DNA from: Vandiemenella viatica
Lineage: Eukaryota; Arthropoda; Insecta; Orthoptera; Morabidae
DNA: 64,000 bases
NCBI GenBank assembly: GCA_031002005.1
Contig: JARYHS010009186.1
Coordinates: 258,197,199 to 258,261,198, forward strand
Direction: 5' to 3'
The notes under the pieces: model-generated
The model's database searches: none
What the model was told of the DNA's origin: nothing
Seen by the model: the letters and a program-made list of their open reading frames with translations, nothing else
Program-made: the position numbers and the translations under genes
Shown here: positions 114-62,261 of the stretch, one piece after another
Layout of the letters: each line of letters opens with the position of its first letter
Position numbering within the stretch: position 1 is the stretch's first letter

Positions 114-165
114 CGGTCTGTCTGTTTTGTAGGGAATGTCAGGCTTGTTCTGCTCGATCCATGTG
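114..165 (-). CDS. Cassette D exon 5: C-terminal helix and linker
   Basis: A 52-nt exon, acceptor TTTTTGTTGCAG, donor GTGAGT, phase 2 in and phase 0 out. After the split Arg codon it reads TWIEQNKPDIPYKTDRP. The conserved phase-0 donor predicts a further cassette downstream, below position 1. Without splicing, translation would end six codons past the donor. Confidence 0.8.
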
Positions 166-3100: not shown

Positions 3101-5159
3101 GGCCATACACCTATGACAATTGAATGAGTAGTAACTCGTAGACTAATGAATTATTGTATGATTGGATGGCAAGCTAAGTGGCTGACGGTAATCCGCTCCC
3201 ATGATCTTTCAGGGCCTACATGGTGAACAGACTTGAGCGAAGAGAGTCAGTTTTACTGTTAGAAACCCATACTGGCTGATGAAAGCTACCCGTGGAAAAT
3301 GAGCAATCTATTCGTCAATGACTGCCCTCAGTGTGTCCGCTAATAATTCATTGTTGCCTCAAAGGTGAACTTTATTGACGTCAGAGTGTCAGTCCCAACT
3401 AGTAACATCAATAGAGTCAGCGTCTCACATTCATGACAAACAATACTGCGCTCAGCTCGGCGTGTGCAGAGACTGGCCTACTGAAATGAATTCCAATAAA
3501 ATATTCTAATTTCCTTTTAATAAACCTATATGTCCATTACAATGCTAACAATGCCATTATTTCCACTTTGCACCGCTAAGCAGCTCAGGCTACATCTAAA
3601 TCACATTTTAGATGGCATCTCTCACCTCTCACTCAGGGAAGGGATGCTTTAGGAAAGGTAACAAAACAGAGAATGATTGCACACAGAGTTCCATTAATGA
3701 CAGTACTATGTCCGCCTGTCACATGATTTGAGGCAAAGTAATATCGTTTTGAATTAAATGAACTGCGATGGAAAATCTAAGACTATTTGAAGATAAATAA
3801 AAGAAAATTCTAGAAATGTAAGATAGTTTAACCAGCACGTAGGTGAAATTAAAGCAAACCCCTTTGGAAACGTGAAGAGTTGCAGGCTCCACTGACTGAA
3901 TAAGAAAGCCATTTATGGGAATCTACGAAGTCAGAACACAGTGATACCACACTATGTCAGCGTGAGCTCTGTTACTTCTGTAGATCTCCTCTGGAACATG
4001 TTTTGAAGCAATTACTACTGAGAAGTTGATTCCCTATTTGATGGTGATTCACTATATTGCAAGCCGAAATAAAAGCTGAAAGATTACATCATTCATAGAA
4101 TCTCTGACGCCACTCACCGGTAGTGACCGGTGTGGAGGAACTTGACTGTGGGACTACAGCCCTCGCTGTCCTCCCACGGCATGGCCACACCCAGCAGTCG
4201 CTGGACACCGTCGTCCTCCGTACACATCAGCGGGCCTCCCTCGTCGCCGGGACACGCCATCTAAATCGCACATAGACAAAAACCCATTCACCCCACAGAG
4301 TTTGATTTTTGGTCGTATGTGATGATAATTAAAGAATATTTGACAGCTACTAGAACAGGACTGATCAGCTTATCTCCTGGTTGCATACACTATCGGCTAG
4401 TGATGTATTGGACACAATCTTTTATCTCACACCATTCTCATGATGTGATGCGAATTTTCTCACCATGATAGACAAGAAACTAATCGTAATCCCTATTTCT
4501 GCCTACAACACAAATGACTAAATTGTTAATATCCATGAGGAATATCTCCAAAGCAGAATTTTAGTCTTCTGTGCCTAATAAAATAAAATTTAATCAGAAA
4601 TGGACTGCACTGCTTCCTGCATCAGTCTCACCACTCAACCACTGTACGAAAGGCCATAGGCAAAAACTTTATACTGCCAACCTTATACTATATATAGAAG
4701 ATCTTAGAAAAAGAAATGGAAGAAAAGGTTACAAAGACACCTGGAATTCTTCAAGAATGCTCACTAAAAATACATCTAGAAGAGGGTAAAGCAATCATCC
4801 TGGTCTTTCTCAATGTTGAAAAGGCCTATGAGAGCATTGTAAGATCAAAAATTTTGGATTGCCTAGAAAGAAGAAAGGTATCAGGATCCTTCATCAGCAA
4901 GATTAAAAGGCTGTGTGTGAATAGGCAATGGGGAGAGCAGGTGGTTTGAGACTAGAGGAGGAGTACCACAGGTCAGTTCTTCGACACCCCAACTCTTTAT
5001 CGCTGTATCAGCATTCACCAGATGCAACAAATCATGAAAACTATGTAAATTTCCTCCAAAGAGATGTCATATGCACAAATTTGCTGAATTGTATGATGTT
5101 TTAAAGTGGCTGTACCTTTCTAGACATTTCAAATACATGACTGCACACAAAACACACAC

Positions 5160-5218
<59 letters not shown>

Positions 5219-8200
5219 CAACCATTTACATGAAAACCTTGTAGACCTCATCAAACAGCACCCAAGTAAACAAACGATCTTCATAGAATTCCTAACAATC
5301 AAACACACAAAACCAACACTCACAAAGACACAGACATCCAAACATCAGGAGAAACTGTCATGTATACACAAATCATCACTTACACAAGCATCCAAATATC
5401 ATTTCGCAGAGATCTTTCCCGCTCTGATCGAATTATGTGTATGCCATACCACGAAGTGACAATAAGCCATCAGCACTTTCTGGGAATGCAAATATTGTTC
5501 ATTAGTGTAAAAAATTTGTAATTGTAAAAAATGCATAAATTATGTAAAAAACATAAAAATTTGTAAAACATTAAATTTTATAAAAATATACAATTTCATA
5601 AAATCCTGAAAATTGTGTAAATTTTCCACAAAAAACATCATCTACATACTGGCGGGTGCCTTAAAGTGATTTCAGAAAACTCCCATTCAAATATTTACTA
5701 GAACATCATATTCTTTAGCACACCACATAAGCATCGACCAACTTGCAGCAAAAGGTATCAAATCATGTTTATTACCTCAGGTTTATAATGTAAATACATA
5801 TATAGCTGAAGTTTTGTGTCAATTGTGTTTTTATCACAGTGACATGGATACATGAAAATGTTGCTTAGAGGTATCAGATATTTTTGCTATAATGGAAATT
5901 ATAATTCTGTAGAATAAATATGAATAGAAACAATATAACTTCTTCTATTCTGTCAACTACTAGTTGTATTGACACCTGCAACGTCGTATCAGCAAATGAT
6001 TAACATTCACAAACAAACTGTAAACGCAAAAGCTACCAAGTTGTGCATGAGCGTAGTAAGAGGTCACTCACCGCTAGTCCTGCCTGCTGCATGCAGATCA
6101 GAGCACCTGCAGTATCAGCGGCCACCTGACAGCTTACATTCGCAACCGTGCACACCATCTCATAGTCTTCCTGGTCTTCATAGTCGACACTCCCGAACCC
6201 AAAGCCGTAGAAGCCACACGATTTGCTCCAGTTGTCTGGCACGCTGAACACCAGCACGACATATTAACCAGACATTCCAGGAAAAATCTATTAATTTATT
6301 GTTTTGGTTACTTTCATATTCTTGACTGTTTACTATAGAAATTGTTTCGAAGTAATGGATTTGGAGGTTAATAAAAGTTTACTATTCATTAAAATATTAT
6401 ACAAGGCCCAATTACTGGCATCCAGCAACTTGCAATGGTCAATTCTTCAAGAACCTCTTCCCTCTTGTAGTTTTCATGATTAAACTGTATTGATATTTTA
6501 GGAAATGAACAAGACAATCAATCATTCTAATGACCAAATTCACTCTGGAGATATATAAGGTACATCACTGTTTCTGCACTGCTTAATAACCTTGATGAAA
6601 TTTGATTTCATTAATAAAATTAAGCACAAAGTTCTTCCAGGCGAATGGCTGCTAGAAAAAGCATAGTGCCATGGATACAGATGGGTGGGAATAATATTAT
6701 ATTTTGGGAGATATTTGCCTGGGCTTTTATGGGCCTGTAATAGTGATCGGAGGCTTCTTATCTTCGATGATGGTGATTACTCCGTGGCTAGGAACTATTT
6801 CCCTCCACTACTGCCAAAGGTTCACTCTAATTGTTCTGCGAACTGCTGCCAGCACACAGACATTTACTTTCTCCCCCCTTCCTACAGTTCATCAAATTAT
6901 TTCTACTTTTGTCTGCATTTCCCTGATCACCAATAATGCATCTTGAATTTGTGAGACAAAATAAATTTGATCTGCATTATCTTGTTTCTCCGGATGGAGC
7001 CGCGATGATTTATTAAAACCTAACATTTCTGCCATCGTGCCATAAATCGATTGGGGCTCCTGGAGAACTGAGATAATGCATACAGTGACCGAGGAAGCTT
7101 TTGTAATTATTTTACATTTGACCTCTAACCAGAGTCAGATGGGGAAGAGCATCTTGTAGATGCAGGAATAGATAAGGTCAGGAAGCCTTTAGACATAGAA
7201 GCATGGAGGCAAAAAACAGAAAGAAAAAGAAATTCTGCTGTTAGGGAGTAGCCATGGGAGAGGTGTAGACCCTCTTCTGCAGGATCAGTTAGCCAGGCTA
7301 CAAGGTAACAAGCATTTTCAAACCCAGTGCCACTAGGTACTTTCATCCTGAGATGGGAAGGAATAAATCAGAAGAGAGTCACCATACAAGCAGAAATAAG
7401 GAAACTACAGAATTTGAAATAGATTCTCAAGAAATTATGAAGGAACTCAGACACCTATAGAAGTGCAAAGGGGATAATGTAAATAATATCACTACAGATT
7501 TACTAAAGACTGCGGGATACTATATTGAACCTTAGCTTGAAACTTTATTTAAACTGAGTCTGGAGTCTTGTTTCTTACCAGAGGAATTTAAAAGAGTGAT
7601 AGTAGTACCAGATCAAAAATGAGGAGTTACAAAAAGGGTCGTAAATTACAGGCTGATTATTTTGAAATCGTTGATAAGGAAAATAATGGAGAGATTGATA
7701 ACCAACTACATCACAGATTTGACTGAGTGACCTGTAAAATGGTTTTAAATAAGTTGAAAACAATTGGAGTGGATGAAAAAATTACTTACTAGGTACAGTA
7801 ATTCCTAAAAGACAGAAAGTAGAGTGTTAGAATAGGAAATGTATTATCAAAACAGGTGAAATGGAATATGAGAGCCACAGGATAGTGTATTGAGACCTTT
7901 GCTATTCATCATTCTAATAATAATTGTATTGATGGTTTACATCCAGAATTTAGGTTGTTTGCAGTACAAGTATCACAACAGGAGAAGACTGTGAACATCT
8001 GGAGGATGACCTCGAAGAATATCTAAATGGGTAGGTTAATATGGAATGAAGATAAATGGAAAGAATGAGTCAGCTTACTAGGCACACAGATAAAAAAAAA
8101 GTAAAGGTCGTTTATGATTATACATGGGGCTGGATTTGCTTTGTTGAAAGTTTGAATTGTAAATATCGTGGCACAAGGTTAGACAATAAACTGAACTGGG

Positions 8201-11200
8201 CACAGCACATTGGACAGGTGGTAGGATAATCTTACAAAACCCTTCATAAAATGGAGGGGATAATGGGAGGATGAACCAGGGAACTTAATGAATTGGGTTA
8301 CTTAACTGTAGTGGTATAGTCTGGGATCCACATTTTGGATTTTAAATATAGGAATTGGGGAGTATGTAAAGAATAGCAGTTAGAATTGTTGGTAGAATTT
8401 ATCGGCCGGTGTATCAAATCGGAAGGAGGAAGGGGGTCAAATTCCATGAAATTTGTGTGATGCAATTCATGTATGGCTCCTTACTGTAAAGAAAATTATA
8501 CGAGGCATGTTTTTTTAAGTAAGTACCGTTTTGAAATTAAAAAAAGACGTGCAAATATATATCAATAATTTTATTTTTACATGAAAGCCTATACCTTACT
8601 CTACTTTTCTACATAATTCCCTTCAATATTGAGGTACTTGTCATAACGTAGTACCAGTTTTTGAAAACCCTCCTCACAGAAGTCTGCCGCCTGACTTGTT
8701 AACCACTGCATCACAACTGTTTTGACTTCGTTATCGTCTTCAAGACGCTGACCACCCAGGTGTTTCTTCAAGTGCAGGAACAGATGGTAGTCACTTGGCG
8801 CCAGATCAGGGCTGTATGGAGGATGATCTAGAGTTTCCCATCGAAAAGATTGATGAGATCTTTGGTGTGATTAGCCACATGTGGACGGGCATTGTCATGC
8901 AGCAAAACGATGCCCTTGCTCAACTTGCCACGTCTTTTGTTCTGGATTGAACGGCGCAGATTGTTCAGTGTCTCACAATAAGCTGCTGCATTGATTGTCT
9001 CATTACGAGGCAGAAATTCCACAAGCAATACTCCTTTTCTTTCCCAAAAAACTGTGCACATGATTTTCCGGGCAGAAATCGTTTGCTTGAACTTCACTTT
9101 TTTGGGTGAATCTGAATGCTGCCATTCCATGGACTGTTGCTTTGATTCAGGTGTGATGTAGGCCACCCATGTCTCTTCGCCCGTAACAATTTGGCTTAAG
9201 AAATCATCAACATCATTGTGGTACCGCTAAAGGAAAGTCAATGCACTGCCTAAAAGTTTGGTTTTGTGCACATCCATTAACATTTTCGGTACCCAACGTG
9301 AGCACAATTTTCAGTAATTCAAGTGCTCGGTCACAATGCCATACAAAACACTACGAGAAACATTAGGAAAGTCATCACACAATGAGGAAATCGTAAAGCG
9401 TCTGTTTTCTCTCATCTTATTGTCCACTTTCTGCACCAAACTTTCATTAACGACCGAAGGATGCCCACTCCGTTGTTCATCATGCACATTTGTGCGGCCA
9501 TCTTTAAATGCTCTCACCCACTTTCTCACCATTCCATCACTCATAATGTTTTTTCCGTAAACTGCACAGATCTCACGATGAATATCGATCGGTTTTAGGC
9601 CTTTAGCACAAAGAAATCTTGTAACAGCCCTTACTTCACAGTCGGCGGGACTCACGATTATCGGAGGCATCTTAAACACTCAGTGAACAACGTAAACAAG
9701 GAAGAATTAGACTGTAATGGCATCAGTGTGTAGGCAAGAGATGCAGGTACCCAGTGTGTGCATGCGCGGAACGCCGACCGTAGCGCTGCAGCCACGGTAT
9801 GACAAAACGGTACTTACTTAAAAAATACGCCTCGTAGTTATCCTGCAACATAGAAGGCAAATATAGGCATAAAATAAAACAAACAATTATAGTAGTGACT
9901 TAGGTTATTTTCTTTTTCTACAAGAAATAAACAGCAAAACAAATGATAATTTTAGAAATTCCTGGCGAAATAAAGGCTGCATTATACAAAATTAACAAGT
10001 TCAAGTGTTGGACCCACCTGTCTTTTTATGATTTTCCACATAAACCAAATTGTAAACCACAATACATAGAGCAACAAAACTATTGTTCACAATAACAGCC
10101 TCTAATGATATCCTGTGTTGAATGGATACCCCTGGGAAAAACCAAAATACCCCTTATTCTTTGATTGCTACACGTATTGTGTCTATTATCACGGAATGAC
10201 GAGACTTACGTGGTTTGGTCGGGAAGCTTGGCCCAACTGACCGTGGGTGTCTCGTGGAAGACGCCCTTGATGATGACCAGCATGAGTCCATCAGGGTGAG
10301 GCAGGTAGTCGGAGACGTCCAGCATCTGGAAGTCGCCGTCTACGGTTCTCGCTTCCCCGTACTGTACGTTGCCCGCGAAGACGTACGCTGCACCAACGAT
10401 ACGTAGTACTTTTAAAGACTTTTAAATGGTAAAGAAAAGAATTAATTTCTTTCCCAACTAAAAGTAATGTAGCCTGACAAGACAATCATTCTTTAATCGG
10501 ATGTTAAAACAACTGGAAAATTATTGTTAAACATACATTAGTCTCTGTTACACAGCGTGGGATGGCCAGCTATCACCATGTGATGTTAAAACAGTAATGG
10601 CACTGTTGATAAAACAAAATTACATCATTAATAGGACAGGTGAGTGTTGGACAAATCGAGTCTGTTGTCACCACTATTTCGTACCCGGTTAGGCTCACTT
10701 CGAATCAAACTAGATGAAAGTGAGTCATTGATCGTGAATAAAAAGTTACACTTTTACTTCACAGCAGGACTTTGAAATACCTGATTTCCTGTTTCATTCT
10801 CTCTTGAGTTAGAAAGGACTTCACACTAGATATTATATTTATCACTTAGCTAACAATCCATTTCACAGTTGCGAATTCACTGTGGAAATATACCACTAAA
10901 ATTTTTACATGTTGCTGTAAAATTGGAAATTTTGATTGATCTCTTCATAATAATTTTCCTGAAATTCAGTTTGAACAGAATGTTGTAAATGTCCACCTTT
11001 TCAACAGTGTTAGATTTTTATCTCTGAGACAGATATCGGTGAGAACTATTCATAAATTTTCCCTCAAGCAGACCTCTTTATTGTATTAGCAAGCAGGATA
11101 ATGTCAGTATTATTTATACCAGTGCTAATGACATCTAAATATAAACATGGTATAAGTATGTCCATTACCCTAATTGTTATCTCTGGCCTTGAAATTCTGT

Positions 11201-14200
11201 CAAAAGGCTCTTCCTTGGGAGAAACATTGTGAAATTTATTAATACAGATAGTTTCAGTGGTACACGAAGTACTTTCCACTCCAACAACCTTGGCAGTGAG
11301 AGTCAGACTTTATTTATGCGACAGGCTTAGCTTGTTTGTGGTACTGACACGGAGGTTTGTGGCTGTCAGGTGGCCTGCAGGGGCTGGCAGAGCTCAGCGC
11401 GACGGATGGAGACAGCAGGCTGCACGTGCACACCACGTCGGTTTGCAACAAGCACACTGACCTTGCGTCACCTCTCTGCACCACACTCGCCTCTTTGCTC
11501 TGCTTCACTTCCTGCAACAGAGAAAACTACTGCAGTTGCTTACTCCTCCTACAAGTGTCTCTGAACGAGGAACGGGTCTTGCAACTTACTCCATAGTAAA
11601 TTAAACATATGAGGTTCATGAGACATCTGTAACCACAGTCACAACTACCTAATTGTGAAGCAAGTTATTAGTTTGTTATACTATATAACGTGAACTAAGG
11701 TGAATACATCAAGCATAGTGAGAAAGATGAGGTCCAGCCACAGCCTATATTCTCTTCAAGGGAAATACAAAATACAAAATAATTCACTGGCATATGTCTT
11801 ACGAGGTTTGCAAACAGATGGCAATAAAAATATCTCTCCGTTATGTTAAATAGTATTTGAAGCCACTGATATTCAACATTTTGTTGTGGCTTTCCACTGA
11901 ATGTAGTAAAACTAAGAAGCTACAATAAGATTTTTCTGCCTAGTTCAACATAATGGCTGTCACTCACCAGACCGCTTGTTTCATCGGAACGGTCAGCCTG
12001 GCTGCTCTCGATCCATTTGCTGCAACAAACAGAGACATTTTAAAATAATCAACAACATACTGTAAGGACGTTGACTGTGACAAATTAAAATACAGTTTAG
12101 CTTGGCTGATTCACTGTTTCCTTCCGGAGTATTTTATGTCTTGAAAGCATAAGTCTGCACACTATGGATTGTTATGCCATTCATAGTTTCACCTCAGACA
12201 CATTAACCGCCACATGTCATGTTTCCCACAGAGCCTCCACAATTACCGAATCACTTGTATTACTCTCAGTACTTCATCTGATAAGACAATCCTCTACTTT
12301 ATGCCATTGACCACCTTCTGCCACAACTAGTAGGGGCTGGATATTTGAGAGAAAACATATGATAGTGAAACGAATATAAGGTCTAGAAGGCTAAACTCGG
12401 AAAAACATAATGTACAATTAGCACACTCAAAGAAATTGGAGTGGAAAAATAAACAAAAAATTGGCTGCAACAAAGAAATGGTCCAAAACAATGACATCCT
12501 TCCACAGATCCTACTATTCATAGCTGTCAAGGTTAATATGATGGATAAACTGACAGTAAGAAATGGATATGAAAAGATGCAGCTAATTGCTTTTTGCGAT
12601 TTCTTGTTGATCTTGTGGTCCACGAGAAATAGAGATGTTGATTGATTACACCAAATAGACATGTGATAAAAGGGTAAATAATTATAATTAGGTACCCTAA
12701 GGTAGCATTACATAAATAATTAGAAATATAATTGGCAATGATGTAACTCCATAGTTTTTCTCTCTAGATGGCTCTGTACTAATGCCTACTCTTACTACGG
12801 TGATTGTTGGAAGGAAACTCATTACGTTAAGATAAATCCTTAGTATTTGGAATATCTGTTTGGAAGATTTCTATAAACTTGCTGAATTGCATATAAGATT
12901 AAAAGTAATTGTGGCAAGGAAAAGGGTTCAAGAGTAGAACTGTTGGTTGTTAGACAATTTCTATAAACTTGAGATTAGCATACGTGTTTCAGTCTATAGT
13001 AATGAGCGTTGTATCGAATTTAATTAGTTAGAACAGACTTTGCATTGAATAAATCCTTTTTGTAATTGTTGCCCCCCTTTTTCCGAGATTTTATAAAATG
13101 TAAGCAGACAATATTCAGTAAGTGGTCTGATGGAAAATAATAAGAATTATTGAAGGTGGGGGGCAGAAATGTTGCAATCTGAATAAGTACGTTATTACAT
13201 GATAATGACTAAGAATATGATCATATTAACCAGGACAATTATGAAGTCAGGAAAACACACTTGGGATATACAATGTTTCAGATGCTCTGATGAAAAATGA
13301 AATACACAGTAACTACACACACTCAAAGAAATGGGAGTGTGATATACACTAAGGAGGGAGAAGAAACAACAAACTGAATGCAACAAAGAAACAGTTCAAA
13401 GCAAGCTAGTTCCTCCTAACATCTCACTACACATGCTTGCCAAGCTTAAGATGAGGAATATGGTTGAGGATGAACTGGATGTGAAAATGTGCAGCTAATG
13501 GCTTTCAAATTGATAATCAAAGAGGAACAGCTAGTAGATCATTTACTAATGACATTACTTCAGTGAAAGCAACAAGTTCAACATGAAAATTCCTATTACA
13601 TGATGTGAAATGCCAGGTGAAGATCTGATGGCTACAATGTTTAGATTTTGAAATGGCAGTGGACGGTGGGTTAAGTCTTTGATATTACCATGAAGGTGTC
13701 TCAATAATCAGAACGAAATCAAAGCACCAAAAACCACGTCTTTCACGTCATATTACCAAACGCTTCATTTGACAATTACACTGCAATGTCTGCATACAGC
13801 GCTTCAGTTTCACTTCTTGCATGGAATTAGGATAGCAGAATCAACCATACTAATACAAACTACTTGGCAGAGACTATCACTCTCGAATAACCTAAGTTTG
13901 TGATATACCTACAGACAAGTTCACCAGTGTTCAAGAAACGAGTCTGATGTATCTCAGGTTAAGTCCAACAGCCATCTTGTCATCTTCTCTTACAAAACCT
14001 ATTGCATTTCTTCATCCACTTAATATTTAGTTTTTATACCAACCCAGGGTTTGTGAAACGTCATCTCTCTATGATTGGTCAAGTAACAAAACAAAATTAG
14101 TAATAATTACTAACAATGCTTATTGTGCAGTTCTTTGGAAACTCTTCAATCGGTCACTCATTTTCATTTGCCGTTATACGCATGTGATTTTGCTGTTCTT

Positions 14201-15513
14201 TGAAATATGATGCAAATTCTTCAAAACTGAAATGTTAAAATTGCTATTTATTTCAATGCCATGGATCACCCGATTCATGTTTTGCTATAAACTTATGTCA
14301 ATAAATTATACACAAATTGTATTATATTCACTTTCATTAACTGTCGATTGGGAAGATGCAGTAACAAAACTGAGTGATATGATTCACACATTTTTTACCT
14401 GTTTTGGTATCATAAAAATAATTTCAGTAACAAATTTGGTGTGATTGTTGAACATAGCAACTTTCCATGAAGTGAAAAATTGCATTGAATTACTCACACC
14501 TTTAGCTAACACTTCTTTAACAACAGATTTATCAGTTAAGTAAGAGATTTATTACATTATGCTATGATATATAATTTGAAGGATTACATCATTTGTGGAA
14601 ACAATGATGCCACTTGCCGGTAGTGACCAGTGTGGAGAAACTTGACGTTGGAACTACAGCCCTCGCTGTCCTCCCAGGGCATGGCCACACCCATCAGTCG
14701 CTGGACACCGTCGTCATCTGAACACATCAGTGGGCCTCCCTCGTCACCATTACACGCCACCTTCAAAACAAAATCATATAAACAAATCTGACTAAAACCC
14801 ACTAACCCCAAAAAGATTGTTGTTTTGAAGAGTGTGGGTGAAATCTATATATTTGCATGCCTAGTTTAATCATTTGTGGCACATGGCCTTTCTGGACACC
14901 ACACTTTCCACATAGCACAGCTCTCATGACACAATTCTCTCTGAACACAATGTGATACCAATAACTGTATTTAGCGAGTCTGCATGACCACCAAATATGG
15001 TTGTAACATGGGGTGAAGTTAATATCTCGAGGAAGTACAGCGGTGTTACTCCTGGTGATGTGGTATGGGGAGAAGCCTTAGTGAGTGAGGAAACACTGAT
15101 GGCACAATGGTAGTCAAAGACATTCTGCATCTTTATGTGTTACCTCTTATGTGACACTATCACAGTCAAAATGCTCGACTACACATGACATGTGACTCTA
15201 TCAAATTTTTGCATGATCTTCAGGTACTACCACGTCCATCAAGATTCCCACATTTGTATCCCAACAGAATGTGTGTAACACCAGCTCGGATGTCAATTTC
15301 ACTGCAGTTCCAGTATTGAGGACATCAAAGGCCAGTTACAATAGTTGTAAATATTCAGAATCAAGAAACTACAGAAAAAGATAGTTATGAAGCTGTTGTT
15401 CAAAGGTCAGCTATTTATTTTATTTATTTATTTTCCATATGCAACATAGCCCAGCACCTAGTATCTAATCTGGGCCCTTATTTCCACTCTTTTACATTTA
15501 CATATATTTGTAT

Positions 15514-15551
<38 letters not shown>

Positions 15552-24500: not shown

Positions 24501-27500
24501 ACGTGCCAAATTCGCTAATGAAATGTTGTTACATGACAATGAAGATTTTCTACATCATGTTGTCTTCATTGATGAATCGACCTTTCACCTCAGTGGACAT
24601 GTTAACACTCATAATGTGCGGATCTGGGGCTCAGAAAATCCTCAAGAGATCGTACAAGTGCAACGAGACTCCCCTAAAATCAATGTTTTTTGTGCCGTAT
24701 CCCGGCGGAAAGTTTACGGACCTTTCTTTTTTGATGAACCGACTGTAACTGGTACTTCTTACCTTGATACACTAGAGCAATGGCTCTTCCCTCAGTTTGA
24801 ACAACATGAACCAGAGAACTTCATTTTCCAGCAAGATGGTGCGCCACCTCACTGGCATAACGAAGTACGCGGTTGGTTGAACGTAACTGTACCCGACCGC
24901 TGGATTGGCCGCAAGGGGCACAATGACAGAGCTTGCTATGCGTGGCCTCCACGTTCACCTGACCTAACGCCATGCGATTTCTACCTTTGGGGTTTCATCA
25001 AGGATCGTGTGTATGTGCCTCCGTTACCAGCCGACCTCCTTGAATTACGACAGAGGATTGAAGCAGCTGTTGCAACAGTTACTGAAGACACACTGCTCAA
25101 CGTTTGGGAAGAACTCGGCTACAGACTTGATGTGTGACAAATGGTGCCCACATAGAACACTTGTAAGCTTGTATATAAAACTGCTTGAGTTGCTCTTTCA
25201 TTTAACATATCATTTATAACTGTAAGGATAATGTAATAAATCTTATAAAGCATTAAAACCCCGATATTTATTTGTGGACACCCAGTATTGTTTGAACTTC
25301 TTTCGTTCTGCCAACGTCAGGACTGCAACATCTCTCGGACAATGAATACCAGTACTGTATGCCGTGTCGGCTCACCGCTTTGCCCGCCCGCTGGCTGCAG
25401 GTTAGAGTGCCTGCAGCGGCGTCCTGGCAGCGCACCTTGACCTTCGTGCAGACCATGTTGTCATCTTTGTGAAGGATGCTCTTGAACCCGAAGCCGTACA
25501 CGTCACACGACTGGTTCCAGCTGTCTGGCACACTGTACACCACGACGGCACATTAATCAGATATAAAAAATCCATTAATTATTGTTTTGGTTACATTTAT
25601 GTTCTTGTGTGATTGGTGAATTAATTGGAAGCAAGCAAAAAACTATTCACAAAAGAAAATTGAATTTCCCAGACCCAATTTTTTTAAAAAAATATATAAA
25701 ATCTCTAAGCTATCACAATACATATACTTCTTAATTAGAATATCTTTGTGATGGTTTAAATAAGATAGCACAATGATATGTACTTCACTTTCTCATTACA
25801 CTTACAAAACCCCCAGTCCATGGTGGCCAGGAATGAAATTACGTACTAAGTACAAATTAATGGTAAATAAGTGTTCTTATTCCCCAACGTTCTTAAATAG
25901 TATTGATTCAGTGCTAACAAACAAACAAAATTCTGCGTAGTTTATTAATTTGAGGAAATGCCACAAGAAATTTACCATTTTTGAACCCATTTTGGTGTTT
26001 GAGTTTTTTCCTTGGAAAATTAAAATCTCTGAGGAAATTATAAATGTTTCTTGATGGAATAGGGACAAGGTTATGCATAATTTTTAACGCACTGTAATAC
26101 TTCTCAAAATTACTTTTAAATTTAGTATCACAACATTAGTTTCTAAACAACCCAGCTACAATAATAAATGGTAATATCTTCAGCCTTCTCACATTCATTC
26201 CTAAAATGCTTCTAGAATGAACGATAAGGAATGTAAACAATCTATATGAATTTGGTTACCCCATGAAATCCGAATATTATTTTTTGTATGATTTATTTTC
26301 ACTGAAAAATAGATACTTTGAATTGAATTTTATTTGATCCATGAAGTCATAATTTATGACATAGGACAAGTCATCAGTAATTACAATAAGCATTACAGTA
26401 TAATTTTTTCACACAATATAGGATTACATATCATTATTATAATTATCATACTTAAAATTGCACAGTCAATACATATGTTCACTGAAGTTAAATTAATATT
26501 TCAATGTTTTACAAGTTACAATACAAAATAATTTAATCATGTTTGTTCATTTCTCGATTGTTCATATATTAATTGACACTATAGAAGCTATTGACTAATA
26601 AAATTTTTTTTACGTATATTTAAAATTATGTAAATTTGATATTTGTTTTATGTTTTCAGAAAGAGAGTTGTACAGAATTTTAGGCTGGTAGGGTACACTA
26701 TTTTGGTATAGAGCTTTCTTGTGCCACTCTATATGAAAATTATTCCTATTCCTCATTTTGTGTTTATGTATTTCCTTATTTAGCGCTGCATATTCCTGAT
26801 GTGATTTCAGGAAGCAGATACACTCAAATATGTATATACATGGTAGAGTCAGTATTTTTAGTTCTTTAAAAATATCCCTGCAGGATTCTCTACGTTTCAT
26901 ACCTTTCATGATTCTTATAGCTCTCTTTTGAAGTATGAATGCCTGTTTTGCATGTGTTGAATTTCCCCAAAAAATTATACCATATCTTAATAAGCTATGC
27001 TTATATGAATAGTAGGCACACAACATTTTTTTTAAAAGAGCAGCAATCTTTAAGCATTCTTAAAATATAACAACATTTGCTTAACTTCTTATTCAGTGAT
27101 TCAACATGTTTATCCCACTTTAAATGTTCATTCAACTATATTCCTAAAAATTTTGTGTCATGGATTTGTTTTATATAGGTATCTCCTATCTTCGCTAAAT
27201 TACTACTGTTATTTTTGTTTATTATATGAGTGAAACTAATCCATACTGTCTTTTCATGATTTACAATCAAGCAATTATCATGGAACCACTTTTCTACTTC
27301 TTTTGTTGTTGCAGTAATTTTCTGCTGTAGGTCAACTTCATCCTGCCCTTTTATAAAAATATTAGTGTCGTCTGCAAACAATACCTCATCAGCTGTTAAT
27401 AAATGATTTGGTAAATCATTTATATATATAAGAAATAGTAAGGGTCCTAAGACTGAGCCTTGTGGTACTCCGTGGTCAACTTTATGATACTCTGAAAAAT

Positions 27501-33500: not shown

Positions 33501-36500
33501 TTCTTGCTACCCGATTTCAATTTTTGTTAGGTCAATAATTTTAAAAGTATACTACCTATTGAAAAAATAAAAACAGTCTGTTAAAGCGGAGAAATTGTAG
33601 AACAAGGTGACAAAAGTTTTAAAATCTGAAACAAAGAATTCAAAAATACTCTGAACAGGATGTCAAGTTCGGGAAAGCCGCTTTGCTCACACGAAATAGT
33701 ATCACTACACGGTTACACAATTTTAATTTTTTACACCGAATTGAGTAACTTTAAAGGTGTAGTGATGATAAAGTAAACCAACCAATAGTAAGATCCCCAA
33801 ACACTGTAAAATTCTGAGGGCTCGAAGTTACAAAATTTTTCCAAACTATGTTTAGTAGTGCGAAGCTACATGTGTTATGGGTCCAAGGGTATATTAGGAT
33901 GTGTGGCCACGGAGCCCCCACATTTGAACAGAAGTTATAGGAGTAGGTCGGTGTATGGTCCAGAGGTGCGTTTTGTTGCCCAAGGCATGCTGGGTAGACG
34001 CGGGAGTTTTGTTTGAGCCTAGTGGTTTGGCAGACGTCATGAAATTTTTGAACGTTTGACTATGTGAACTTTAGAAATGAAACTTTGAATTTCTTAACAG
34101 GGGTTTGGTCTGTTTATTCCTCTTTATTACTTTCAGTTTTAGGAAATGATTTGTCCGATAGCCAATTTGAACTGTAATTATGATTTATAATGTGACTTTG
34201 AAGAATATAGTGAAATTTCTTATTTGAACTGTGCATATTTCCCATTAGTGCAAGTTAACCTTTTCTTTCCTGAGGATAATGAGGGAAGTGGCAGCCATAA
34301 TTCACACAGATGATTCATCCAGGCTTATACACAGTTTAATAGTGAATATTTCTTTCATACTGAAAGCAAGTTGGAGGTTAGTTAAGGTGATAGAATCAAT
34401 ACTACAACCCCAGTATTGGTTTTTCCCCTTATAAATGTAGTAAGGCTGAGAAGCTATAATAAGATGTAGCTGGTACTCACCTGTCTGTTCTTCAATGCAG
34501 GAAATTCAGTCAGGCTCCTCTTGATCCATTTGCTGCAACAAACAGAGGTAGCATTAGTCCTGTCAGTCACCGCACTGCACCAGTAACCTACAGCAGTGAC
34601 TCTGAATGGGGAGTTGTAGGATATTGCTAGGCCTCTCGTAGCTCCACTAGAGCCCCATTTCACAGTCCTTCCAGTGGTTCACAGTTACTGCCGACTTTTA
34701 TTGGAAGCTAAGCTAAGACCCAACACCAGAGCTGCCAAGCGGAGAGCAGAAAAGGGGAACGCCTTACCAACGTCGTGGCAAACAGAACAGCCCTATTCTG
34801 GGATTCCAATCTGTTGGCTTAAACCTCACGCAGATGTTCCACCAATTTTACATTCCAGAAACTGGATAATAATGTCTGTTCCAATACCTTACTGGTCTAA
34901 TCTCACCATCGGTGAGTTCACAGCACAAGACTAGGTTTATTAACACCATCCACAAATTCTGGTTCACAAGGAGCAGCGAGATATTGCATATGTCAATTAC
35001 AATATTTTATTCTTTCATATGGTAATTTAGCTTTTATATTTAAATATGACAGTGTGATATTTCACAGTACCTCTGATATTGATATTTGGTTATATACAGT
35101 GGATTCCCATGTCGTACCCTTAGCTATTGGATAATAGAACCAACTTGACTTTAGCAGCAGACCACATATGAGCCACAGTCCTTATAGTGTTAAAAGGAGG
35201 TAGAGACCGAGTGTCAAACAGATTGTCCTCCTTAATTATTTATTTTATTTATCAATCTTGTTTCATGGATCCCTGCTGAGAAGGACCTCTGGGATGTGAA
35301 AAATGTCATGGTTAATACACATACAAACGAGTCATAATCATAGTAAAAACAAATAAAGAGAATAAAAATAAACATTTTTTACAACTGAATTTTGCAAAAG
35401 TCATATTGAATACAATTAATTATTTTGTTCAAATTCTTGAATGGAGTAGAAGGTAGAAGCAGTTGCCAATAAGATAATCTCTTAGTTTTTCTTCAAATAT
35501 ATCTTTATTATCTGCAAACTGTTTTATACTGTTGGGAAGTTTATTAAACAGATGTATACCAGAATAATTAACTCCTCTTTGTACTAATGATAGAGATGTT
35601 TTTGTTTTGTGCAAGTTATTTCTGTTTCTTGTATTGAAATTGTGTACCTGTGAATTAGAAGTAAACAGTTTAAAATGATCTATGAAAAAGCATAGAGATG
35701 TGCCTTTAATGTGTTCCTAACTGAGTCGCTTGAAGAAATGACAATTAGTATTACTCCACAATATAATTCCATGAAATTCACTTATAATGACTCATATACC
35801 TGAAAACAAGATTTGAATCATGATAGCCTGCAGGACACAGTAGAAGTGGTATAGCTGCTGAAGTGGTTTCTCTGTTCTCTCATGGTTTACCGGTTTTAAT
35901 TATTTTTGCTAATTAAAGTTGATTTTAATTTTAATTAAATTTAATATTTGATGAGTGGGGTGACTGTTAATTTTAGTATCATTTTTAAAATATTGGAATG
36001 TCATAACCTGGCCATTTATTCAGGAATTGGCATTTAATTGATCATGGATGTGATGTATTTACCTCTAGTCAAAATAAACAATCAAAAATATTTTGTAAGC
36101 AAACATCAACACCACTCATTAATTGGTTGAGTCATTACAACACATACAATTGTCTAGCAAATGAGTGATAAACATCTTCACCAAAGTACTGAATTAACAA
36201 TTAAATAGGTTGCTTATGACCTCGATGTCAATGTGCCATAATCCAACAACAAGAACAACATAACAATTAAAATTCACTGATATAGGTGACAATGAACAAG
36301 AAATGAAACGACTCCAAAATACATTTCATCTTAATCGGTTTTGAAACCTGGGGCACCAGTTAATTCAGTATTACTCACCAAAAAGATAATTAAACTGCAC
36401 ACGATTTAAACTCAGGGTCCTGGATTGAACAGAGCATATATTTTTATCCTGCAAATATCTTTACACAGGGGGTTTTAGGGTGATTTCGAGTGAATTATAC

Positions 36501-39500
36501 GCATACGCACGTTGGAAAATAATCAGACGTACATTGTCTTTACCATGTATCTGTGGTGGAACAGGCTGGACCTATTGCTTGAAGATGTGAGAAATCTGAC
36601 ACCCCAGCATTTGGAGTGCCAGATGTTCACCTCAACAAAAAAATATCCATTCGCAAAAGGATTTTCCCAAATTACGAAGACGGAAGCTGGTCCACAGTGT
36701 AATGTCCACAGTAGATCCACGAATTGGCATCAAATGGAATCCTTGACCCTTCCTAGTCAGGTGATTCCTCCATGAAATGCCTCACGTCTGCCACAGCCAA
36801 TTGTGTGGTATCTTTCGTCTCCTACCACTAGGCGTTGCCCCCACATAAGACAGATTATTTATAAAAATTAGAACCATTTTATCAACAAAGTCACTCTATT
36901 GGAGGAAACATGCAACACTTTATTCATATGTCATGTGCCTCAAGATCCTTCACTATCGTTGCCCATGACCAGAGATGACGTCAGCTGACAATACTGTCTT
37001 CCTAAACTCGCCCTCTCGCTTGCACACTGATGTACCCATTTCCAGAATTGACATTGATATATCCACTGCCAATGCTTACTTACTGAACTAAAAGTTTGTG
37101 GTTGCAGGTGGTACAACTGATAGCTTGACGTTCTTTGTAAAACAAACACAAGCATCTGTAGAATGCTTTTATCTGGGAAAATGAGACACCACTCACCGGT
37201 AGTGACCGGCGTGGAGAAACTTGACTACAGAAGTGCAGTCCTGGCTGTTCTTCCAGGGCATGGCCACTCCCAGCAATCGCTGCACACCATTGCCCTCTGT
37301 AAACATCAGCGGACCTCCCTGGTCACCAGGACACGCCACCTTCAAATTAAATCACACGCACAAACTCGACTCGAGTCCGTTCATCAAAAAGATACTTTTT
37401 TTTGTTTAGGAATGTTGTAGTACTTAATATAAAATTATTTCTCTGTAGTTAAAAATGGAATGATCAATCTAACTTATATACACACAGTTTATTAAAGCTT
37501 TCTCTTGCACCGGCCTCTCGAAATAATCTACTCCTGACATCAATTCTGCCTATGAAAGAAATCACTGTATCTCTTATGTTCCTGGAATAATATCTACAAC
37601 AGACAATTTTATGTTCAGGGTCACAACGTGTGTAGCATGATCTTAATTTCCAACTTAGATCCCCCATAAACCAATCAAAAAGAGTATGCATTTTAGTTAT
37701 GTTCAGTTTCAGATCAATAAAATATAGTCTATCTTCATCCAAGTCTTCACTTATGAATTAAATTCAGTTAAGCTATTCTAGAATTATCCTGCTGCAAGTC
37801 AGTGATATTACTCAGCTTACGTCTTGGTGGTTCATTTAATTCACATCACTGGTAATCAGAATTGGATAATTTTCTTTAACATTTAAAATTATTTCGTGCT
37901 CATGTAGGATTGCAGGGCATTATAGGACAGTTATTGTATTGTAGGCAATATTTAATCTCATTTGGCATATGGTAGAAATGATCAAGCTTTATCATTTAGT
38001 TAGTATATCAATAGGCTGTTGAAGTAACAGCAATCATTCCTTGTAGTAAGTAATCAGGTCAGATGTATTTATAGATGTATGTGAAAGTTTCAATGGACAT
38101 TTTGAATAAACAGAAGAAGTTAAATATTTCATGAGTTCTCTTTTGTACAGTAGCAACCTATTAAGTGATCAACAAGTTTAAATTATTAATCACGAGGGAA
38201 TTCTTTCAACGATAATCCATGTCAAATATTGGCTCACATTCTCTGGTTCATGGAACGAAGCCAGGTCCACTTTTACATGGTTTATAAGAGTACATTTTCC
38301 CTACTGTCTATTATCTAATCTATAAAAATGAGTTTTTATTTGATGGGTTGTTGTTTGTTCGTTTTCTATGCATTCTTGTACCATTCCTCTCATTGCGATG
38401 AAACTTTGGTGAGTTATTGTATGCGTACCTGGGAAGGTTTCTGACCAAAAAATATTTAAAAAACCACCCCCTCTTCCCCCACACACCCCTCAATGTTTTC
38501 AAATGATCTTTGTATTAGCTCACAGTTTTTGACTAATTATGATGGCATTTTGCACATGTATACTTTAAAACAAAAAATACTTTCTACATTTGTTTTGCAA
38601 AATCTACGCATCTCCACCATTACAAAAAACTCTTAATTTTTGTCAATGTTCTTCATACAAATCCACAATTTTTGTCTGATTTTGATAGTACTTGGCAGGC
38701 GGATTTTTCAGAACAAGGCGGTCTGGTAACTCAGTGGTTGAAGCACTTGCTTCCAGACCATTCTGTCTCTGGTCACAGGTTCAAATCCCAGTGGGAGCAG
38801 GCATTTTTAAGTGTTGCATTTCATCATTTGAGCTACACAGGGACATTCCGTGGTTCGGTAAGAAACTAGCCAGCCTGCTTCTGACAGAATGCTTAGTACA
38901 TCTCATTTGGGACGATACAATCAACATTTGGGTTGTGTACTAGGTTAGTATTTTCCTTTAAAACACAGAGAAAATAACTTCCTGTTTCATCTGCAAAAAC
39001 CCAATCCCATTATCACCTTCCCCTTCATGTTTAGCAATTTTATTTACATAAACCCACAGCTTGTTTTCATATTGACGGAACTTTCCACAAGTATATTTTA
39101 TTCTGCATTTGCTTTGAAAAACCTAATCCCTCTTCTCTTTTACCTCCATGATTTAATTTTTTCCAATGTTTGTCGTGCAAGTACATTTTTTCTTCTTCTT
39201 CTAATTTTGATGGAACATAGCACACATATGTAATAAAACAGAGTGGTCTGCTAGCACAGTGCTGAAGGCACTTAGTTTCAAAAGTTTCAGGATATGTTCC
39301 CAGGTTGAAATCTTGGTGGAAGCATGAACTTTGATCACATGAGATTTTCCAGATCCATGGTTCCAATAGCCTCTTCAGTCCCGAGGTATCGTATATGATA
39401 CCCTCAGGTATTATTTTTTTCTCGGGCGTGTGCGTGGCTGTACTTTTTCTGCCCTGTGGTATCATCTACGACACACATCATGTTTCTCACAGCTCATTTG

Positions 39501-42500: not shown

Positions 42501-45500
42501 TGTTACCAAATGCTAATATTGAAATTGTACACTACCAACTTAAACTATTCAGTCTCTAAATTACAAACTACTCACCGTTGAACCTCGTTTATAAAACATG
42601 AGATATATTCAATACAGAGATATAACAACACATGGTTATAGTGTGGACTGACCGCTGGTCCGAGGCGCTGCCCGCAGCTGAAGGTGTCCACAACGTCATT
42701 GTCAGCCCTGCAGCGCACCCTCGCCACCGCGCACACCATGTCGTCGTCTTCAAGGTCGTAGCTGCCGTAGCCGAAGCCGAACAAGTCGTAGGACTTGTTC
42801 CAGCCATCTGGCATTCTGCACGCCATCACACCACAGAAGGTACCATTAGATTATTGTGTTTGTTTCTTGCATGTTATTGAGTGGCTACCCAGTAAATTAT
42901 TTCAAGGTAATGGATGTTCGATACAATATTGCATAATGACCAATTACTGGCATTCAGTAACTAGGGGCAGTCAATTTCTGAAGAAGGTGTACCCTCACTG
43001 TAGCACGCATGATTCAACCGTATCGATGTTTCAGCCAGTAGCTACACTCGTTCATATAGAACAAAGCCTTTAAAGATCACATTCCTGCAAGATAAAAATC
43101 TAGATATATAAAATTTAGATATTTGAAAACCTTAAGAAAATTATGTACTAATTTCCCTGATTCAGAACGTAACAAATAAATTTTTAATCAATGGTCATAA
43201 GTTGTTCACCAAATTAACATTTAAAATACTAAGAACAATACTGTTAACGTTTAACACAAACAAATTAATAAACATTATTCAAAATATGAGAACTGATATT
43301 ATAATACTTAAGGAATCTTATCTGTTAACAAATGAAAAAATGAATTGTCTACTAATATTACTATCACTCAACATGGGTGGCAAAGTATGTGTTATTCTGA
43401 TGCTGATGTGTATTCACTTATGGATGGGAAGTGATATACGGTTTACGACAGGTGGCGCAAATGGACTATTTTCATGACCAACCTGGAATTTGCCTGGAAT
43501 GCAGTAGCCTATCTCTAACATAAATGACTTGTTCCGCCATCCCCCAGCACAGTCCTCGAGAAGTAGCCAGAATCTCGATCGCAGTCACAAATGGAATCCT
43601 CAGACTTGAATCGAAGCCTTCTCTTACCTTCCATTCTTGAAGTTACCTCCGTCCCTTACCATAAAAACTTGGAGTGTCGCAGTCACCAAATTAGGCTGTG
43701 TTTTCTTATCCCACCTTCTCAAGTCACTCAAATATGTGATCATAATGTTCTTTCCTTTCATTGTTATAAATAAATAGTAACATTATTAACAAATTCTGGA
43801 ATTGGAGGAAACACATTTTCACTCGCTACCCCATTGGCCACGTCTACTGATGACATCAGTTGTCGATGCTGAATTTAGTAGAATGTCCCTATCTTCCTTC
43901 CACATTCGTCTCGCTCTGTCTCTTGCATATTCACAATGATATATCTTGTCCCTGCTATGTTGTTGACCCCGGTGTTTGTTGTGGATGACATCTCAGACAA
44001 TCTGTTGTACTTGACATTTATAACGAAACATAAGATTTCAGAATGTTCTTAGCCGGGATTGCCTGGGGTGGGAAACTGTCCTTTTCACTTGCTGTGCATG
44101 CAGACACATACAACAAGTCCATTCATATCCCATGTCAGGTAGTGCTTAAGGCTGTCTCCGATACCATTCCACCCCGTATGCCTGTGAGCCCAACCCTTCC
44201 AACCTTGCTCCATAATTCTTCCATTTTCTATTTTTTGTATATGTATATTATATTTAAATCAAACATAATGCAGGTGTACCTCGTGTAATAATACAAAATA
44301 AAAAACAAAATACACGGCCATATATAAATTACTAGCGAAATAATTGTTACATTATAAGATGTTAATAAACATATCAATTGGACCCACATAGAACAAGATT
44401 ACTGCACATTAAAAAGATATTCACTATCATCACAAAATTTGGCTATTATTAGTTAAAAAAAAAACTGTCTTCAGCCGTTTGTAAAACGATGTTGAATTCT
44501 GTTGTGTAGCCTATCATGACTAATCAGATTAGTTGGTACTTTCAGTCTCTTCATGACATTCCCCCAAAATAAACTGTTAACCATATAAATGCTGCAACGA
44601 AACAGATGTTTGCAATTACAGGGATGATGAAATCAAGTGTTACAAGTACACGACACAAATGAGAATTAATATTTTCACCAAAAACACCCAATAATTTTAT
44701 TGCAGAATGTGTGCTTTCTACTATCAGCTCTACTGTGAGGGAGACGAATGCCTGGACTTACGTGGTTTGGTGAGGGAGCAGAGCCCAGTTGATGGTGTAT
44801 GTCACGAGGAAGGTGCCACTAACGAAGACCAGCATGAGTCCGTCTGGGTGCTCCAGGTAGTAGGACACCTTCAGCACCTGACTCTCGGCATCTATGTCTG
44901 AGACGTCGCGGTACTCCACATTGCCCGCGTAGACCCACTCTGCACCAAAATCCATACTCCATTTGTTGTAAATTTTAATAGTTCTTAGAACTTCTAAATG
45001 GTAAAATAAATAAAGAACTCTTTTCCTAAATAGAAGTAATATACAGTTATCTGGCTTGGCGTCCTCTATTAAGACACTAAATCTAACATACATCTGCATA
45101 TTCTACCCCAAGTGGGATAGCCTTTCCCCACCTTGAAACTACAAGCCACAGTTAACAACTCAGTGATAACACTAGATTTTGCTTGCACATATGTTTACCC
45201 AAAAGAATCTGTACTCGCCATTCTACTTTAGCCAGCTAGAGAAGAGTTATTCCGTTTACTGTGAAGAAATAATTAACTTCTGTACCCTGCAGCAAGCTTC
45301 AGCAGTGGCCTTTTCTTATTTGCTATCCTTAGTGATAGAGAAGTTTCCAATTATATTTATCAACTTTTTTTTCCCTCAGTTTTCCCAACCGCCACTTTGA
45401 ACAGCATCATGTGAATGTCTACCTCTTCAATAATGATTGGTATAATCCATTAGCTCTGAGACAGAAATCAGGGAAAACCATTCACTAAGTTTCAACCAAG

Positions 45501-51500: not shown

Positions 51501-54500
51501 GATCGAAGTGAACATATCTATCTATCTACGATGGGACGCTGTTTATAATGAGACTTGCTTGTTTGTACTGACTATTGGATCTGTGGCTGTCGGGCGGTCT
51601 GCAGGGTCTGGCAGAGGTAAGCGCGGCAACTGCAGACAGCAGGCTGCATGTACAAACCATGTGGGTGTACAACATGCACACCGATTTCGCGTCTCCCCTC
51701 TGCACCGTAATTGCCTCTTTATGGAAAATCGGTTCCTGCAAGAGGAAAAACAACTGCAGTGTAACAGTTGAAATGTTTCAAAAGGAAGGTGAGAGAACCA
51801 ATGAGAATTCCCTTGCTTTGAAGCAAATTCACTTAGCTCTATAAACAAACAAGAAAAATTACACGAATGTAAAATTTTAATGACCTAAAGTGTTATTAAT
51901 AAAAAATTAAAAAATGTAGTACAGAATGCTTATCAATAAAAATAAAACATCAGTTTGGTCATGACATCTGTCACACTGAGATGTCACACGCTCATCTTTG
52001 GTTGCCAAAGATGTTACTCCAAAGACGTAGTGGAGAGCACTAGTTAACAATGATTCTATTCTATTCTTAGCAACTGTAAAGATATGAATTACCAGAAAAA
52101 TGAAATAAAAACATGTATTTCATTTAAATCAGCAAATTAATTATTAGTTGCTCTTTGCTTATTTATATTCAGTATATTTTGTATCCCTCGACATCTAAGA
52201 TAAAAGTTTTTCATTTTAGGCAGCAATATTGAAGGAGGTTCTGATTAAACTGAAATTTATCCTGGGCTAGAATGACAACTGGCAGTCATCATTACAACAC
52301 AGGATTGAGTAATTTATTTATTTTTTAAATAATTTCATTTGCTTTCATGAGTGTCATGGTAATAAAATAATTACTTCTTGCATATAAAAGAAGTTCTACA
52401 CTTATTGTGATATTTAATTTAATTACAAATTGAGCATACATTCCGGTCGCCTTTTCCCTACACAATCCTGTTTCAACCTACATTTGCCCTCTACAAATTT
52501 CAACAATTTCGCATCATTTCTGTTGGTAACTTATTCCACTCCCTGACTCCATACCCACGAAAGAAAATCTTCCCACACCCTTGTGCCTGAAATCGAGTGC
52601 CAGCTTGTGGTCATGGTCATCTTTTCCCTTCCATGAACAACTTTTCATACCTACTGCAATATCTTTCCATGCCTCATCGCCAGTATACGCCCTGTACACT
52701 CCCATGACCCTCCTCATCCTCCTCCTGTCTGCAATGAATCCTATTCCAGCTCCTTTATCATATCTGTCACTGATTGCATTCTGCGATAATTTCCAGAAAC
52801 AAATCTAACAGCCCTTCTTTGTAACCATCTCCAACTCCTGTATTTGATACGTAAAATGAGGGTCCCATAATACACTACCATATTCGAGCAATGGTCTGAT
52901 CAACGTTTTGTACCCCAGTTCCTTTACTTCTCTCATACATTCCCTAATCACTCTCTCCAACAAGTAAAGAATTTTGAAACCTTTCCTACTACATGTCCAA
53001 TTGAGCTGGTTAACAAATGTTAAGCCATGATATTTCCATTTCAGGCCATCAGCAAGCAATACCTTCCCCACTTTATAGTTATAATCAACCTTTAGATTTT
53101 TGTCTGTGTATCTAATAAGTTGATTCTTCTTTGTATTTATCATCAGCCCATGTTTGCCAACCCAAATAGATATCCTTCACAGATGACCCTGCAGCTTTTT
53201 ACAGTCCTTTACCATTTTGATCCTTGTATTTAACATTATGTCATCTGCAAACAATCTAATTTCTGAAAGTAAACAATCAATACAATTATTCATTAGAATA
53301 ATGAAACATAATGGTTCCAATATGCTACCCTGTGGCATTCCCATTTTTATTTCTACTTCTTCTTATATTACGTTTCCTACCCTACAATTTTGCTTTCTAT
53401 CTTTTAAAAGTTCTTCTATCCAGAAAACAACTTTCTCATTCACTCCAATAGTTTTTACATTATTTACCACTATTTTGTCACTCTGTCAAAGCCTTTGAAA
53501 GATCTAGTGCTACACTATAAATTTGGCCTTCCTTGTCCATTTCAACCCAAATATCTTTCATATATCCCACCAACGGAGATTTGTATGAATATCCTTGCCT
53601 AAAGCCAAGTTGCCAACATGAAAACTACTCTCGCGCTTCACATATGTTCCCGATGTGGTTGCATATCAATCTCTCCATTATTTTACCTACCACTGGTGTT
53701 AAACTGATTGGCCTATAATTTTTGACTCTATTTCTAACCCTTCGTTTATTTACTGGTAGTACTATCATACTAATGTACTATTGTATTCCTCTGGTAAGCA
53801 GCAAGTATCAAGACTCAGTTTAAATAATATTTCAATATAAGGTACAGTGTCACATATTGCTATCCTTAAGACATCCATAGTAATATTATCAACACCAGCT
53901 TCTTTATGTTTTATATATATAGCTTTCATAGTTACTTCATGATATCCTCAAGATCAGTTTCAAGTATTTTAGTCTGACCATTTCTAATTGTGTGGTTAAG
54001 CCCACTCTCCGATTTACACTCTCCCATTTCTGAATCATTGTCCCTATTGGTATAACTAAACCAATTACCGAAAATCTCTTCCTTTTTACAATAATCAGTA
54101 ATGTCTTCTCCATCCTTATGTATAGTTGTCTCAACATTCCCCTCAATTTCTCGAGGCATCAGTTAGCAGTTCCCCTTCACTTATAATACTCTTCATTATC
54201 CCATCTTTAGCTAACTTCTTTATTATTATTAATTCCTTGTTTAGTTGTTTCATACATTCCCTACTACCCTACTAGACAGTATTTTTCTGTTTGTTTTAAA
54301 GTATATCTGTGGAAAGTTCCATTGATATAGGATATAAACTGTAGATATGTTCAAAGAACATTGTCAAAAAATTAAGGGAGTGGAAAGGGAGAGAAGGGTT
54401 GGATTTTTTGTAAACCAAAGGTTGAGAGGATTATTTTGTTTCTTTTATGTGCACCGAGCATGGCGGTGTAACGGATAGCGTTCTCGCCTCGTATTCGGGA

Positions 54501-62261: not shown

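Follow-up and report, generated by a model that had tools for sequence, protein, structure and literature searches.

A probable chain of catalytically dead S1A domains encoded by a symmetric five-exon cassette in the orthopteran Vandiemenella viatica

We analysed a stretch of 64,000 nucleotides (nt) from the orthopteran insect Vandiemenella viatica (Morabidae; GenBank assembly GCA_031002005.1, contig JARYHS010009186.1, positions 258,197,199 to 258,261,198 of the forward strand), hereafter called the window, whose minus strand carries an array of exons for trypsin-like (S1A) serine-protease domains without catalytic residues. On the whole, 16 exons running from 62261 to 114 were rebuilt from the letters of the window, and they splice into one frame of 2146 nt without a stop, giving a chain of 715 residues. 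An earlier note, made from the sequence alone, had proposed a polyprotein with 16 exons bounded by consensus splice sites; all of them were recovered, with AG acceptors in 16 of 16 and GT donors in 15, and the claim fails only for the donor after 14618, which reads GC (gcaagt) and makes one GC-AG intron. The exons follow one another in cassettes of the order E2-E3-E4-E5-E1 with boundary phases 0-1-2-0-2-0. Three cassettes are complete, having 699, 696 and 708 nt (233, 232 and 236 residues), and all three both start and end in phase 0; these lengths, phases and ends are those of the earlier note, reproduced in full from the window letters. The smallest exon, E1, with 14 or 17 residues, holds the W-I of the preceding domain's C-terminal helix and then the linker, and the intron before this W-I together with the linker intron bounds the symmetric cassette. 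The E1 donor is a phase-0 GTGAGT in four of four cases and the acceptor of E2, the exon that opens the next domain with its first strand, is of phase 0 in three of three, with linker introns (from E1 to the next E2) of 10483, 3912 and 456 nt. The array is incomplete at both ends of the window, as an extra E1 (E1_0) lies upstream and the donor of E1_3 is open downstream, 113 nt from the window end; the note's expectation of more cassettes outside the window has these two ends as its whole support. A loose tblastn with the 16 exon peptides found no convincing further exon copy in the window (off-target E of 0.13 or above), although a stray E1, being too short, could escape such a search. The features are as follows, all exons being rebuilt ones and the sites of E2_1 and E3_1 being read from the columns of alignment A1.

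62219..62261, minus strand: E1_0, W-I from the C-terminal helix of a domain that lies upstream of the window, followed by the linker; TTGCAG acceptor, GTGAGT donor, phase 2 to 0
51573..51735, minus strand: E2_1, N-terminal barrel exon of cassette 1, His57 site Pro
44762..44939, minus strand: E3_1, Asp102-site exon of cassette 1, Met
42653..42815, minus strand: E4_1, GWG-like exon of cassette 1, sequon NKS
37197..37339, minus strand: E5_1, GDSGGP-site exon of cassette 1, reading GDQGGP
34481..34532, minus strand: E1_1, W-I of domain 1 and linker to domain 2
30406..30568, minus strand: E2_2, N-terminal barrel exon of cassette 2, His57 site Pro
28941..29121, minus strand: E3_2, Asp102-site exon of cassette 2, Met
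25376..25532, minus strand: E4_2, GWG-like exon of cassette 2, sequon NQS
14618..14760, minus strand: E5_2, GDSGGP-site exon of cassette 2, reading GDEGGP; GC donor
11968..12019, minus strand: E1_2, W-I of domain 2 and linker to domain 3
11512..11967, minus strand: linker intron between domains 2 and 3, 456 nt, without AATAAA or a signal-exon-like stretch in the intron scan
11349..11511, minus strand: E2_3, N-terminal barrel exon of cassette 3, His57 site Pro
10210..10387, minus strand: E3_3, Asp102-site exon of cassette 3, Met
6072..6243, minus strand: E4_3, GWG-like exon of cassette 3, sequon NWS
4118..4260, minus strand: E5_3, GDSGGP-site exon of cassette 3, reading GDEGGP
114..165, minus strand: E1_3, W-I of domain 3 and linker; donor open towards the next exon

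The modules encoded by the three complete cassettes are S1A domains, as the earlier note had recognized: Pfam Trypsin matches all three with 23.7, 47.1 and 30.0 bits, above the gathering score of 20.6 that served as cut-off. A PycTM match in module 1 stays below its own cut-off (E 0.026) and was taken as chance. Among solved structures, those closest to the modules in sequence are HGF beta chains, with E-values of 1.4e-07 for module 3, 3.5e-08 for module 2 and 4.2e-10 for a profile of the three modules. The triad sites were located from the HGF beta alignments in modules 2 and 3, and in module 1 through its columns in alignment A1 and the profile, the S1A numbers 57, 102, 195 and 189 being those that we assume for the module residues. 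The His57 site is Pro and the Asp102 site is Met in every module, the Ser195 site is Gln in module 1 and Glu in modules 2 and 3, and position 189 aligns with Val in modules 1 and 2 and with Met in module 3. Thus no module has the His57-Asp102-Ser195 set of an active peptidase, and all three complete modules are serine protease homologues (SPHs), that is, S1A domains without at least one triad residue, with the whole triad replaced in each, just as had been claimed. Because Pro57 and Met102 are common to all three modules, it is simplest to assume that the loss of catalysis preceded the amplification. There are 9 cysteines in module 1 and 11 each in modules 2 and 3; module 1 is without both of the cysteines found at 124 and 180 in module 2 and at 123 and 184 in module 3. 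The latter two we take to be one pair, C136-C201, which appears to have been lost together in module 1. The invariant cysteines 20, 30 and 145 (module 3 numbering) have no obvious standard partner. All three modules retain an N-glycosylation sequon at almost the same position. No activation site of the R-I/V-V-G-G or L-I kind is present at the junctions before modules 1 to 3, and the linker before module 1 contains Arg-Ile-Met.

The open exon chain is more than chance. None of 2000 base-shuffled chains is open, and modules mutated at random stay open in 79, 126 and 66 of 3000 trials (modules 1 to 3) at 15% per site, and in 7, 12 and 12 of 2000 trials at 25% per site. Homologous exons differ in length by multiples of three only. 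The modules are 56.5-67.7% identical in pairs, modules 2 and 3 being the closest, and their codon position 3 differs more than positions 1 and 2 (one-sided p 0.001, 0.012 and 0.026). Since the pN/pS of the module pairs is 0.61, 0.62 and 0.57, the protein is kept by selection, under mild constraint. A decaying gene or pseudogene family that makes no protein is therefore very improbable: it would have to combine 16 exons free of stops and frameshifts, 32 usable splice sites and exon length differences all in multiples of three with the small share of randomly mutated modules that remain open (66-126 of 3000, or 7-12 of 2000 at the higher rate), even if the mildness of the constraint, the one GC donor and the transposon-type Pfam matches above cut-off in six of the ten intron open reading frames (ORFs) tested agree with decay. 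As for the relationship among the cassettes, the E2 to E5 exon peptides match one another with tblastn E of 4e-12 or better, and the nucleotide identity of some exon pairs, 0.65-0.72, is within the range of random alignments (maximum 0.72); the homology of these exons rests on the protein level. The E1 peptides barely match one another, the sole mutual match being a weak one between E1_0 and E1_3 (E 0.011 and 0.065), and with the E1_1 and E1_2 peptides tblastn finds no other E1 in the window, so the homology of E1 rests on its position, W-I, splice sites and flanks. Some intron flanks are above the random level (95th percentile 0.68), with 0.81 upstream of E3_1 and E3_3 and 0.70-0.78 upstream of the E4 exons, and many other flank pairs are not; this pattern fits an old duplication of whole cassettes including their introns.

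We incline, with a little more belief than doubt, to the reading that the window holds one minus-strand gene for a chain of dead S1A domains (three whole domains, preceded upstream by the tail of another, with the downstream end open), amplified when already dead, and that the product would be secreted, uncut and non-catalytic. At the exon level an open frame of 2146 nt runs across three S1A domains, at least two in one frame being what defines a polyserase or polypeptidase. The proposal in the earlier note that symmetric cassettes are chained in frame holds up well, as a single frame passes through the domain boundaries and one linker intron has just 456 nt. Within this intron the signal-exon scan finds no exon with a start codon, a hydrophobic stretch and an in-phase donor. 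Because E1 joins the tail of each domain to the next domain in phase 0, and because the 456-nt linker intron is without such a signal exon, a single polyprotein, cut or uncut, appears probable when set against single-domain genes. Cys-rich windows of 42 residues (at least six Cys) number 8 on the minus strand and 8 on the plus strand, one of them inside the 456-nt intron, and windows of 55 residues number 7 and 10, which is a weak test for Sushi or LDL modules; the Cys-rich stretch at 11530-11655 in that intron, a candidate for a hidden module, was dismissed because such windows are equally frequent on the other strand.

Several observations weigh against a single uncut chain. Neither a start codon nor a signal peptide nor a terminal exon is identified within the window, the pN/pS of 0.57-0.62 means mild constraint only, and for one pair the codon-position test gives a marginal p of 0.026. 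The absence of AATAAA from the 456-nt linker intron is weak evidence, with about 0.6 expected from 14 per 10.5 kb, and the two long linker introns hold 14 (10483 nt) and 5 (3912 nt). Raw signal-exon hits in these two are 7 and 5, compared with shuffle means of 2.2 and 0.4. Clustering reduces them to 3 and 2 signal-exon-like clusters, or 5 in 14.9 kb of linker introns (0.34 per kb), the rates being 0.28 on the whole plus strand (18) and 0.20 in the other introns (9 in 45.2 kb); the excess shrinks on clustering yet persists, and alternative starts may exist in the long linker introns. In the intron from E1_1 to E2_2 there is also, at 32918-32871 on the minus strand, a short open stretch, MACFMCCTVFLVSNLR, followed by a weak donor, which could be an alternative signal-peptide exon. 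Furthermore, read-through past the E1 donors meets a stop within 6-15 codons in four of four cases, and for this reason E1 could be a terminal exon; finally, the Arg-Ile-Met in the linker before module 1 could be cleavable by a trypsin-like enzyme.

The stops behind the E1 donors, by which E1 could end a gene, and the signal-exon-like clusters and AATAAA of the two long linker introns are what a tandem cluster of single-domain SPH genes might leave, each gene with its own promoter, signal-peptide exon and stop and their aligned exons mistaken for one gene. Tandem clusters of serine proteases (SPs) and SPHs are indeed common in insects; one survey (PMC4676143) assigns 122 of 221 genes to 36 clusters of predicted tandem duplicates. 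We nevertheless regard such a cluster as unlikely here, as the 456-nt intron would need a poly(A) site, a promoter and a signal exon, and the scan finds neither a signal exon nor AATAAA; besides, the four E1 exons share the phase-0 GTGAGT donor and the three E2 exons a phase-0 acceptor, whereas beyond the donor the four E1 downstream sequences have little in common. The same signal-exon-like stretches, together with the fact that any cassette running from phase 0 to phase 0 can be skipped without a frameshift, would also suit alternative promoters or splicing, giving mixed long and short messages with a cassette number that varies between products; the clustered stretches, however, occur near the plus-strand rate, and we hold this to be quite improbable. 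The linkers bear on a further alternative, a single precursor cleaved between domains into separate dead units in the style of polyserase-1, the array being then a source of many monomers. Human polyserase-1 is processed into independent domains (PMC1435904), and the linkers of the locus contain single basic residues besides the Arg-Ile-Met before module 1; but no basic site is common to the four linkers, whose tails are the most variable part of the modules, and an R-I/V-V-G-G junction is missing ahead of each of the three complete domains, so that a cleaved precursor too seems unlikely.

According to the reading of one uncut chain, all exons would be spliced into one message, and a single domain, already dead, would have been amplified as a five-exon unit between phase-0 introns, where duplication causes no frameshift. 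The protein would be secreted, the 5' end of its gene lying outside the window, and it would be disulfide-bonded and glycosylated, with the domains staying joined. Such a chain may work without catalysis by presenting several similar trypsin-fold binding faces, and a secreted, non-catalytic multivalent scaffold or decoy is then the most likely product. With modest confidence we favour a more specific role within an extracellular protease or immune system, where the chain would serve as a scaffold, cofactor or decoy, by analogy with the insect SPHs in prophenoloxidase activation, where they act in a high-mass non-catalytic cofactor (available part of PMC10540698). A table of Aedes immune complexes lists a polyserase 2-like protein (PMC5310873), and the Tenebrio authors, extending a proposal made for human polyserases, suggest that dead domains may be dominant-negative binders (PMC11172050). 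S1A domains without catalysis are commonly interpreted as remnants or as single cofactors. If a domain that was already dead has been amplified as a cassette whose copies all stayed open, selection would have favoured the number of non-catalytic trypsin folds itself, and the symmetric cassette would be a clean case of S1A domains becoming shuffleable once flanked by phase-0 introns; the internal phases 1-2-0 also occur in three Plutella trypsins, PxTry8-10 (PMC4676143). A bolder version, possible but doubtful, is a giant secreted protein consisting of many dead trypsin-fold domains only, grown by cassettes after the loss of catalysis, whose domain number would be under selection and variable between species or individuals; if true, it would be the pseudo-protease counterpart of immunoglobulin or fibronectin arrays.

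We searched for relatives in collections of uncertain insect coverage. None was found for module 3 (109 candidates, E up to 0.001), for the 715-residue chain (scoring confined to the 7996 candidates with the most words in common, E up to 1) or for alignment A1 (3259 candidates, E up to 1). The scan of viral contigs gave 21 pattern matches and no relative, and Rfam gave 0 matches at gathering score. The earlier note had stated that a chain of domains all lacking the triad could not be named, which is too strong in view of Tenebrio pSerPH608 and possibly some Anopheles chains (PMC11172050, available part). Two or three S1A domains per chain, some of them dead, are already known in polyserases and insect polypeptidases, and a honey bee table has one SP-SP protein, SP17. 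What sets this locus apart from them is that at least three dead domains of one similar kind occur in a symmetric cassette, the weak Cys-window test detecting no Sushi, LDL or clip module between them.

The introns contain a number of other elements. The intron from E3_3 to E4_3 has the remains of a Mariner-like transposase on the minus strand at 9314-9679 and 8831-9226 (HTH_48, Mos1 type, E 8.3e-09 for the first piece, the second recognized by eye). Reverse transcriptase fragments are found at 22211-23032 and 27139-27948 on the minus strand (RVT_1, E 1.6e-26 and 6.4e-33), and transposase-type fragments (DDE_3, DDE_1 and HTH_38) at 24406-25134, 47432-47941 and 49989-50678 on the plus strand. 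Transposon remains of these types agree with an animal genome. Related ORF pieces recur at 61231-61692 (plus), 52517-53176, 28101-28373 and 17106-17576 (all minus) and resemble a repeat family; the first of them, without a Pfam match, is about 90% alike to 52517-52804 over 49 residues. Two further related ORFs, at 15983-16999 and 2665-3150 on the minus strand, share 53% identity over 153 residues and have no Pfam match at E 0.001. At 17161-17386 a 118-bp unit is repeated 1.9 times with 100% identity, being either a very recent duplication or an assembly artefact, and at 15481-15753, in the intron from E4_2 to E5_2, there is a low-complexity tract whose minus-strand reading is a valine-rich run.

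Among known systems, the HGF beta chain is the best match of solved structure, its match to the three-module profile (E 4.2e-10) indicating a shared fold and not a shared family; it is a dead S1A domain used for binding, with one S1A domain per chain. The human polyserases 2 and 3 (PMC1435904), like the locus, have several S1A domains per chain that are separated by short spacers and stay joined; domains 2 and 3 of polyserase-2 are without critical triad residues, and both domains of polyserase-3 are without a consensus activation motif. However, they have two or three domains of which at least one is active, whereas all three complete domains are dead at this locus, and the domains of polyserase-3 and polyserase-2 are 34-40% identical to each other, compared with 56-68% here. 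The insect polypeptidases of Tenebrio (pSerPH608, pSerP614) and Anopheles (PMC11172050) also carry tandem SP or SPH domains in one protein; pSerPH608 has two SPH domains and is hence all-dead, and among the Anopheles chains of the type SP(H)-SPH-clipE-SPH there may be some with three domains that are all dead. Unlike the locus, for which the weak Cys-window test detects none, these chains have regulatory modules, mostly Sushi, or else LDL or clip, and, of the seven Tenebrio proteins, six show a predicted L-I activation site ahead of every domain, which is not seen here; the locus also differs from them by its three or more domains of a single kind. Nudel-type proteins, as far as the available parts of PMC4676143 and PMC10036332 describe them, join a protease and a protease-like domain in one chain, but with LDLA repeats, one protease domain listed as such, and, in Drosophila and Plutella, a membrane region. 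The clip-domain SPH cofactors, in the available part of PMC10540698, offer a model for a possible mode of action, as their dead S1A domains work in a high-mass non-catalytic cofactor; they are, however, activated by cleavage, and their mass comes from complexes of SPHs, whereas the locus would provide a covalent array.
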